DNA of 56,830 bases from an uncultured Nitrososphaerales archaeon (GTDB lineage Archaea; Thermoproteota; Nitrososphaeria; Nitrososphaerales; JACAEJ01). The notes beneath the pieces are model-generated. The model made no database searches and was not told the DNA's origin. It worked only from the letters and a program-made list of their open reading frames with translations. The stretch is taken from NCBI GenBank assembly GCA_938091495.1, contig CALLJF010000011.1, positions 1-56,830 of the forward strand, in the 5' to 3' direction. The translations under genes and the position numbers were made by a program. Position 1 is the stretch's first letter. Every line of letters starts with the position of its first letter. Below, piece by piece: positions 15,874 through 20,144 of the stretch.

Positions 15874-17022
15874 ATGTTGTTATCAAGGAAATTTATGGCA
15901 ACAGTTTCTGACAGGGTTTTATTGTTATTGTCGATAAAGGAAGAAGGGAAGAGTATAGGCATAGATCATATATTCGAGAAAGTTCGTAGAGATGTATTGT
16001 TCACAGATAAAAGAGAGATCGATAAAGATGAAGTGGAGAGGACTGTAAAAGACCTGATCTCTAAAGGACTGGTAGAGCGTTTTGATAATGGTTACTCTTT
16101 AAGCGAAGAAGGAGAAAAGACCATGGAAAAGATAATCCTTGAAAAGGAGAAGGAATTGAACCGCTCTTACACCATGATCTGGTTGGCTAAGAAATACTAT
16201 CCTTATGTTGCGAGGCTCATGATCCCCTTCCTTAAGGATAGAGCAATATCTGCTGTAAAAATATTCTCTGGGAAGAAGGACCCTATAAAAGAAGTGGATG
16301 CCATATTCGTGCGTTATACAAAGTATAAGCCTAAGCCAGTTTTTATAACCATAGATTCAGAGAGTAAGCTCATGTCATTGGTTTTTGATCACTGTATAGA
16401 TTTCATACCCTATGTGCATAAAATCGATGTTCATGAGCCAGATTTCTTCATTCTCGATCTTGATGCAGGATCAGAAATATTAAAGAGTCAGAAGGCCTTT
16501 GATTTTATAAAATTCGTTACTTTTGAATTATCGAGCCTACTTATAGAGCTAGATGTAGCGCCTATAGTTAAATTTAGTGGTTCAAGGGGCTTTCAGATAT
16601 GGGCTAGCTTTGACAATAGTGAATTAAGGGATAGAGGAGATTTATTCAAAATTTATAGAGAGATAGCCATGGCCATTCAAAACAAATTGGAAGAAAGACT
16701 TCAAAGTAAGATTGATCAAATGGTTTCCATCTTTCCAGATATAGTGCATCGTGGCAAACAGATAACAACATCAACAGTTGCTCACAAAGAGGAAAGAGCT
16801 TCTCAAATTTTGGTAGACTGGTCATCTTTAAAGCCAATGGGAGATGTAAGGGCTCCTTTTTCAATTCATTACAAGACAGGCTTAGCATCCTTGCCCATTC
16901 CTAAAGATAAGATAAATGATTTTGATGTAAAAGAAGCTCATCCAATAAACATCATCAAAAATCTTGGAAGATATGAGAAAGCAGCAAATATGAAAAAATG
17001 CAATCCTCCAAAGCTAGTCTAA
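15874..17022 (+). CDS. Archaeo-eukaryotic primase/polymerase (LigD PolDom-like) with N-terminal winged helix
   Basis: A 382-residue protein with two parts. Residues 13-95 look like a winged-helix DNA-binding domain. The rest matches the archaeo-eukaryotic primase fold as in PriS and the LigD polymerase domain: the metal-binding DLD at 195-197, SGSRGFQIW at 235-243, a third motif ILVDWS at 312-317, and RAPFSIHYKTGL at 326-337. These elements are in the right order for nucleotidyl transfer. It is shorter on zinc motifs than canonical PriS, and no PriL, Ku or ligase gene is adjacent. It may be the replicative primase small subunit or a repair polymerase; the LigD-like reading is my preference. 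TTG 15874 or ATG 15895 is the start. Confidence 0.72.
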   Translation: MLLSRKFMATVSDRVLLLLSIKEEGKSIGIDHIFEKVRRDVLFTDKREIDKDEVERTVKDLISKGLVERFDNGYSLSEEGEKTMEKIILEKEKELNRSYTMIWLAKKYYPYVARLMIPFLKDRAISAVKIFSGKKDPIKEVDAIFVRYTKYKPKPVFITIDSESKLMSLVFDHCIDFIPYVHKIDVHEPDFFILDLDAGSEILKSQKAFDFIKFVTFELSSLLIELDVAPIVKFSGSRGFQIWASFDNSELRDRGDLFKIYREIAMAIQNKLEERLQSKIDQMVSIFPDIVHRGKQITTSTVAHKEERASQILVDWSSLKPMGDVRAPFSIHYKTGLASLPIPKDKINDFDVKEAHPINIIKNLGRYEKAANMKKCNPPKLV

Positions 17023-19457: not shown

Positions 19458-20144
19458 TCATTTAACGATTAAAATCATATCAAGCATACCATCAAGCTCA
19501 TTAAGAAAATTAGAGAATTTATCAATTGGCACTATAGGAACCTTGCTTACAAAGAAGACTTTCTCGCTACAGAGTGTGACTATTACAGGAATTACATACA
19601 ATAAGTTAAACTTTTTAGCTTCATCGGCCCTTAGTAGATTCTCAACTCTTTTTATCTGGGCTTCTGCCATCTTTGATATGCTTGATGCTCCCATCGAACG
19701 ATGCCAGTGCTTACAATCTATGGCCAAACCCTTTCCATCTTTAACTGCCAATACGTCTATCTCTGCCCTGGGATGCTTTAGCCTAAAGTTCTGATGAACT
19801 ATGTAGCCATTATATATCATAATAGTAGAGATGAATTCTTCGAAGTCCCTCCAGCTCAAGACTCTTGAGACTTCATCAATACTCGAACCTAGCCTTAAGG
19901 CTAAAACTGAAACCAATAATTTTGCTCCCTTTTCGAATTCAACAGCATTCCCATCAAACTTAGCTACATTCTCGCCTTCAAGAAAGATCAATATTTCTTT
20001 TAAAACTTCAAAACCTAGCCCACTTTTAGAAGCAATCTTCATCAAATCATGCTTACCATCTACAATAAATGGAATCAGTTTGATTAAAGCAACAGGCCTC
20101 GTCTCGATCTCCTCTGACCAAATTCTTTTATTTCGAAAGTACAA
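19458..20144 (-). CDS. Winged-helix plus Mrr-like restriction-endonuclease-fold protein
   Basis: A 228-residue protein. The first 75 residues suggest a winged helix (KHDLMKIASKSGLGFEVLKE). Residues 98-150 show a PD-(D/E)xK core of the Mrr type: the acidic helix WRDFEEFI, then EIDVLAV with D130, and AIDCKHW with D143 and K145. These are the residues expected to bind metal, so an active nuclease is plausible. Similar single-gene proteins are widespread in Crenarchaeota and Thaumarchaeota without a methylase partner, and none is seen here. It may act in DNA repair rather than in restriction. It is divergent from the signal peptidase gene by 49 nt. Confidence 0.75.
   Translation of the reverse strand: MYFRNKRIWSEEIETRPVALIKLIPFIVDGKHDLMKIASKSGLGFEVLKEILIFLEGENVAKFDGNAVEFEKGAKLLVSVLALRLGSSIDEVSRVLSWRDFEEFISTIMIYNGYIVHQNFRLKHPRAEIDVLAVKDGKGLAIDCKHWHRSMGASSISKMAEAQIKRVENLLRADEAKKFNLLYVIPVIVTLCSEKVFFVSKVPIVPIDKFSNFLNELDGMLDMILIVK

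Follow-up and report, generated by a model that had tools for sequence, protein, structure and literature searches.

A widespread archaeal Prim-Pol with an N-terminal winged helix is a candidate Ku-independent DNA-repair polymerase

Locus and domain organisation

The stretch of DNA analysed here (the window; 56,830 nucleotides from an uncultured Nitrososphaerales archaeon) encodes a 382-residue protein, wH-Prim-Pol, in which an N-terminal winged helix (wH) precedes a Prim-Pol (AEP) domain. The features are as follows, numbered by window position.

15874..17022, + strand: wH-Prim-Pol gene, 382 aa (Pfam LigD_Prim-Pol, 1.3e-17; ortholog alignment)
15895..16158, + strand: N-terminal wH, residues 8-95 (AlphaFold2 and Foldseek; invariants in 40 orthologs)
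16159..16971, + strand: Prim-Pol (AEP) domain, residues 96-366 (Pfam, hhalign, AlphaFold2, Foldseek)
16399..16413, + strand: DFIPY, residues 176-180; I178 where LigD has its ribonucleotide-selecting His (His651 in Pa, His111 in Mt)
16456..16464, + strand: motif I, D195-L-D197; pair of metal-binding Asp, present in 40/40
16576..16602, + strand: motif II, SGSRGFQIW, residues 235-243; Q241 in place of the LigD PolDom/PriS His
16807..16824, + strand: motif III, ILVDWS, residues 312-317; third catalytic Asp, D315, in 40/40
16849..16884, + strand: RAPFSIHYKTGL, residues 326-337; best likeness to eukaryotic Prim1 (SPFSVHPKTGR); H332 against the LigD Arg
19458..20144, - strand: Mrr_cat/NERD-type nuclease, a repeated Nitrososphaerales neighbour

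Translation probably starts at 15895 rather than at 15874, because the second Met of the frame (M[AV]T..DR) is the first residue of most orthologs. A preliminary description of the locus had placed DLD, SGSRGFQIW and ILVDWS in the order of archaeo-eukaryotic primases, and this order is present, with the segment at residues 326-337 following. It had also proposed the winged helix, which is borne out by an AlphaFold2 model of residues 1-100 (pLDDT 88) and by PDB matches that are mostly to MarR/PadR/RosR/CggR/MexR-type wH proteins (probability ~1.0, with a top E-value of just 4e-3). A weak Pfam match to PBECR1 over the same region (20.1 bits, below the cut-off of 27.6) and matches to other wH families (HTH_45, MCM_C) were put down to the general resemblance among winged helices.

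The gene is under purifying selection, with a dN/dS of about 0.10-0.14 that includes the wH part. Invariant residues occur in the polymerase domain and in the wH, where K22, H32 and R39 are unchanged throughout the 40-ortholog alignment; since both parts hold such residues, the two domains were probably already joined in the ancestor of the family.

Relationship to LigD polymerases and primases

Among known profiles, Pfam LigD_Prim-Pol covers residues 107-355 of the window protein and is also found in all 40 orthologs, whereas DNA_primase_S reaches 14.7 bits against a cut-off of 26.8 and gives weak matches in 22 of the 40 orthologs. The NCBIfam model ligD_pol matches the window protein at 3e-12, under its curated cut-off. 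Profile-profile alignment with hhalign extends over 225 columns of the LigD PolDoms (99.4%, E 7e-22) and over 54 columns only of PriS. The AlphaFold2 model built from the 40 orthologs (mean pLDDT 94.4, pTM 0.91) leads in Foldseek searches of the PDB to the Methanocella NHEJ polymerase, the Pseudomonas LigD polymerase domain and mycobacterial Prim-PolC (E about 1e-11, query TM 0.49-0.57), with eukaryotic and archaeal PriS much weaker (TMq 0.33-0.43). These matches span the polymerase part only (~300 columns), so the wH is not a piece of the ordinary PriS fold, as the preliminary description had allowed it might be, nor of the PolDom fold. Of the two families that it had named, PriS and PolDom, profiles and modelled fold together point strongly to the branch of the LigD/NHEJ polymerases and mycobacterial Prim-PolC as the nearest, with PriS more remote. 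In a tree made by a quick method and having long branches, to be read without a root or a branching order among LigD, PriS and wH-Prim-Pol, the LigD rows group together with full support, as do the PriS rows among themselves, and the wH-Prim-Pol clade is separate from both.

Active site and nucleotide pocket

The catalytic residues D195, D197 and D315 are retained in 40/40 orthologs. The surrounding pocket carries a series of substitutions relative to LigD. (i) The motif II His, present in 16/16 LigD domains (SGGKGxH) and throughout the PriS sample, is Gln in 40/40. (ii) The position of Pa-LigD His651 is occupied by I178, which is Ile or Val in 40/40 and is His in 13/16 and Asn in 3/16 of the aligned LigD sample. 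(iii) The second 2'-OH contact, Ser768 (Thr236), aligns with D324, which is Asp in 36 orthologs and Leu in 4. (iv) The Arg conserved after motif III in LigD becomes a Prim1-like His, H332. (v) A Lys found in 16/16 LigD domains, which we take to be the 5'-phosphate-pocket Lys (Mt K26), falls in the sequence alignment at position 102, which is Val in 37 orthologs, Met in 2 and Ile in 1. With this Lys gone, recognition of an end or gap would have to rest on the wH or on some other surface.

His651 is the source of the ribonucleotide preference of Pa-LigD, and the H651A mutant inserts UMP and dTMP equally (PMC7072297). Because the contacts through which LigD selects the 2'-OH are replaced, and given this precedent, wH-Prim-Pol is predicted to have a weak or absent ribonucleotide preference and to use dNTPs with an efficiency similar to, or above, that for NTPs.

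Distribution

The family comprises 40 orthologs of 32-96% identity from Nitrososphaeria, other Thermoproteota, Hadarchaeota, Njordarchaeota/Asgard, Aenigmatarchaeota and a few Euryarchaeota. A scan of genome contigs together with genome searches recovered orthologs in 12 of 300 sampled Nitrososphaeria genomes; the family to which the window belongs is most likely Ca. Methylarchaceae. They are also borne by another thermoproteotal family (coded f25), and none was found among the genomes sampled from f2, the largest family in the order. A profile search of one euryarchaeal phylum returned clear members in 4/390 genomes; the Methanocaldococcus jannaschii control matched PF21686, which may reflect a different AEP, and the 390-genome sample may not include Methanocaldococcus. 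One archaeal family member lies on a 3.5-kb contig of a 'Deltaproteobacteria' MAG (L045; QMLL01000326.1), beside an aenigmarchaeal-type secretion ATPase gene, and this contig is probable archaeal binning contamination.

No description of wH-Prim-Pol was found in the open-licence literature, and an earlier mention in a 2005 survey of AEPs (doi 10.1093/nar/gki702) is possible. The word 'new' in the preliminary description holds for the subfamily and not for the fold or the kind of enzyme.

Genomic context

The gene has no Ku, ligase or PriL beside it, in agreement with the preliminary description. Its closest neighbours in the window are a HAD phosphatase and an ABC transporter, neither of them a repair gene, and the wider setting is chromosomal housekeeping (TBP and orotate phosphoribosyltransferase-type genes). 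Elsewhere, several associations recur. Endonuclease V lies upstream and divergent at 252-335 bp in 6/8 hadarchaeal-type loci and at 1.0-1.6 kb in the other two. In f25 loci the divergent neighbour is an HhH-GPD glycosylase, 118-137 bp away, and two more loci have it no further off than ~2.5 kb. The f25 genomes also have a co-directional DJ-1/PfpI gene, mostly 56-76 bp away. In one f25 genome (G302), a LigD-type 3'-phosphoesterase and a photolyase are encoded 3 kb downstream of the family gene. The Mrr-like nuclease is 6-14 bp distant in f10/f9/f13-type loci and 2.4-3.5 kb distant in f1/f7, including the window's own family; it is a possible functional partner.

Ku was not detected in the organism's own genome (96.6% complete). 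The same genome encodes two full-length ATP-dependent DNA ligases, both on other contigs, and a stand-alone LigD-type 3'-phosphoesterase (L194:5909-6292, G000:C6; PF13298, 1e-40), with LigD as well as Ku absent. Within the class, the phosphoesterase co-occurs with the family (9/12 against 69/288 genomes; Fisher p 4e-4), an association inflated by relatedness. Ku is found in 4 of the 37 family-bearing genomes. It directly adjoins a stand-alone minimal NHEJ-type ATP ligase in two hadarchaeal genomes and one aenigmarchaeal genome (L161, L163, L164), and a second aenigmarchaeal genome also bears Ku. In none of these four genomes does a further PolDom pass the Pfam cut-off.

Proposed function and alternatives

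We interpret wH-Prim-Pol as an archaeal subfamily of the Prim-Pol superfamily that acts as a chromosomal, Ku-independent DNA-repair polymerase in short-gap or excision repair, a reading to which we give a probability of roughly 0.55. The wH would hold duplex DNA next to a nick or short gap made by base-excision or alternative-excision enzymes, and the two-metal site (D195, D197 and D315) would extend the 3' end by one or a few nucleotides. An ATP-dependent DNA ligase would then seal the nick, and where the stand-alone LigD-type 3'-phosphoesterase is present it might trim the 3' end. By analogy, the working mode most likely resembles the short-gap repair of Prim-PolC. In favour of this reading are the nearest profile and fold, the separate PriS-PriL pair, the scarcity of Ku, the altered pocket, the stand-alone phosphoesterase of the same genome and the repair setting given by endonuclease V, the HhH-GPD glycosylase and the phosphoesterase with photolyase near family genes. 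Some points weigh against it: the neighbours vary by lineage and are mostly divergent rather than operonic, their recurrence within clades may be shared inheritance, the nearest genes in the window are not repair genes, and the Lys by which known PolDoms hold on to gaps is apparently lost.

The most direct alternative, that the protein is the replicative PriS of the cell, draws on a few shared motifs and on the weak DNA_primase_S matches in the orthologs, and is extremely improbable. The window protein falls well short of the profile cut-off, and the genome (1.39 Mb) encodes a canonical PriS of 394 aa next to a PriL of 338 aa on a separate contig away from the window (G000:C46), a pair that rules out wH-Prim-Pol as the sole PriS. 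The preliminary description had suggested a repair or defence polymerase if the protein were not the cell's only PriS, and it is not. A zinc-binding Cys/His insertion after DxD, present in this PriS (CKEEHDKWVCKDC...), is absent from the window protein. A PriS distinct from wH-Prim-Pol occurs in 34/37 family-bearing genomes, the exceptions being two partial MAGs in which the family protein is the sole match and the 'Deltaproteobacteria' MAG. This separate replicative PriSL, together with the retained catalytic site, the AEP fold, the Prim1-like segment at residues 326-337 and a wH of DNA-binding type, would suit a damage-tolerance primase-polymerase that, like eukaryotic PrimPol, primes anew at stalled forks or carries synthesis past lesions there. 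We regard such a role as distinctly unlikely, as the closest fold and profile are those of gap-filling PolDoms rather than PriS, no zinc finger is seen, and base-excision-type enzymes are neighbours in two lineages.

End joining deserves more weight where Ku exists. wH-Prim-Pol could be the polymerase of archaeal end joining, partnered by Ku and a LigD-type ligase where these are present and surviving with other end-bridging proteins in Ku-less lineages. Its closest fold is an NHEJ polymerase, and it is the sole candidate for this role in the four Ku-bearing genomes, since they have no other PolDom over the cut-off. As an account of the whole family this seems unlikely, for Ku was detected in only 4 of the 37 bearers and not in the organism's own nearly complete genome, the gene adjoins neither Ku nor an NHEJ-type ligase at any examined locus, and both the 5'-phosphate Lys and the NTP-selecting His are absent. 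In the Ku-bearing hadarchaeal and aenigmarchaeal genomes it is a live rival to the repair reading. The defence half of the earlier suggestion fares poorly, and the repair half fits the evidence. Many archaeal AEPs are cargo of mobile elements (PMC5862659) and the Mrr-type nuclease is a repeated neighbour, yet no relatives were found in phages, viral contigs or plasmids, PADLOC gave marginal AEP-like matches only, and the distribution is deep and taxonomically coherent in a housekeeping chromosomal setting; a mobile-element or anti-phage defence primase is therefore very improbable.

Comparison with known systems

The closest known system by profile and structure is the LigD PolDom and the Methanocella paludicola NHEJ polymerase (PDB 5dmu; Pa-LigD, 2fao), with the same Prim-Pol fold and three catalytic Asp. 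wH-Prim-Pol departs from these at several residues: the motif II His is Gln, the NTP-selecting His is Ile/Val, Ser768/Thr236 is Asp, the 5'-phosphate Lys is Val/Ile (by alignment) and the conserved Arg is His. It also has an extra N-terminal wH and lacks a fusion or operon with Ku, ligase or phosphoesterase, the phosphoesterase and ligases being encoded on other contigs. Mycobacterial Prim-PolC (PDB 5op0, 6sa0) is likewise a stand-alone PolDom-type protein and gives the top TM-score (0.57/0.65). It functions in short-gap repair (PMC7442782, PMC5663958), with LigC as its partner and a 5'-phosphate pocket formed by N20, K23, Y25, K35 and P65 (PMC5663958, PMC7442782). wH-Prim-Pol differs in lacking an operonic LigC, in having Val/Ile at the position of the LigD pocket Lys and in the added wH. 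By the features tested, it belongs to neither the LigD nor the Prim-PolC family. With PriS and eukaryotic Prim1 it shares the SGSRG and RAPFSxHxKTG segments and the Asp triad, but it has no zinc-binding insertion or PriL partner, has the motif II Gln and is a distant fold match. AEPs associated with mobile genetic elements (e.g., PrimPol-PV1; PMC5862659) belong to the same superfamily, whereas wH-Prim-Pol is chromosomal, LigD-like rather than PriS/PrimPol-PV1-like, and free of helicase or PriCT fusions.

According to a 2025 paper, Ku occurs in very few archaea, and no Ku-independent archaeal NHEJ pathway had been reported (PMC12019639). For archaea without Ku, wH-Prim-Pol is a specific and widespread candidate repair polymerase that has apparently not been described so far, and the family yields two sharp predictions, namely that ribonucleotide preference is lost and that gaps are bound without the known 5'-phosphate pocket. 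Automatic annotation that calls it a 'non-homologous end-joining DNA ligase' or a 'primase small subunit' would be misleading. More tentatively, many archaea, Ku-less ones included, may possess an undescribed excision or end-repair pathway, in which a Prim-Pol with its own DNA-docking wH and a remodelled, dNTP-tolerant site (SGSRGxQ) works, where these occur, with base-excision enzymes, the stand-alone LigD-type 3'-phosphoesterase and, in certain lineages, Ku with a minimal ligase. On this view, NHEJ of the LigD type would be one specialised offshoot of a more ancient repair Prim-Pol of the archaea. We hold this broader proposal to be possible, at odds well below even.

Related proteins in the genomes analysed

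Large Nitrososphaerales genomes of family f4, among which no wH-Prim-Pol was found in the sample, carry the phosphoesterase domain within frames of 900-1000 aa. At one f4 locus (L184), a single protein combines a phosphoesterase and a ligase with the beginning of a PolDom, as in a bacterial-type LigD. The closest relatives by profile (E 1.2e-23) are proteins of ~300 aa without a wH in genomes of family f43, which belongs to another class of the phylum (L069-L080 except L077). They have lost the second Asp of DxD (DIK/DVK) and the third Asp, and SGSRG is replaced (FDGMNG), so they are apparently a conserved, catalytically dead Prim-Pol family. Within the window's own genus, a further genome (G625) encodes two more AEPs with SGRRGFH motifs (L157:562-1653 and L158:3-917); the first consists of a PriS-like domain with a fused PriX domain (PF18689, 2.3e-14), and the C-terminal part of the second is similar.
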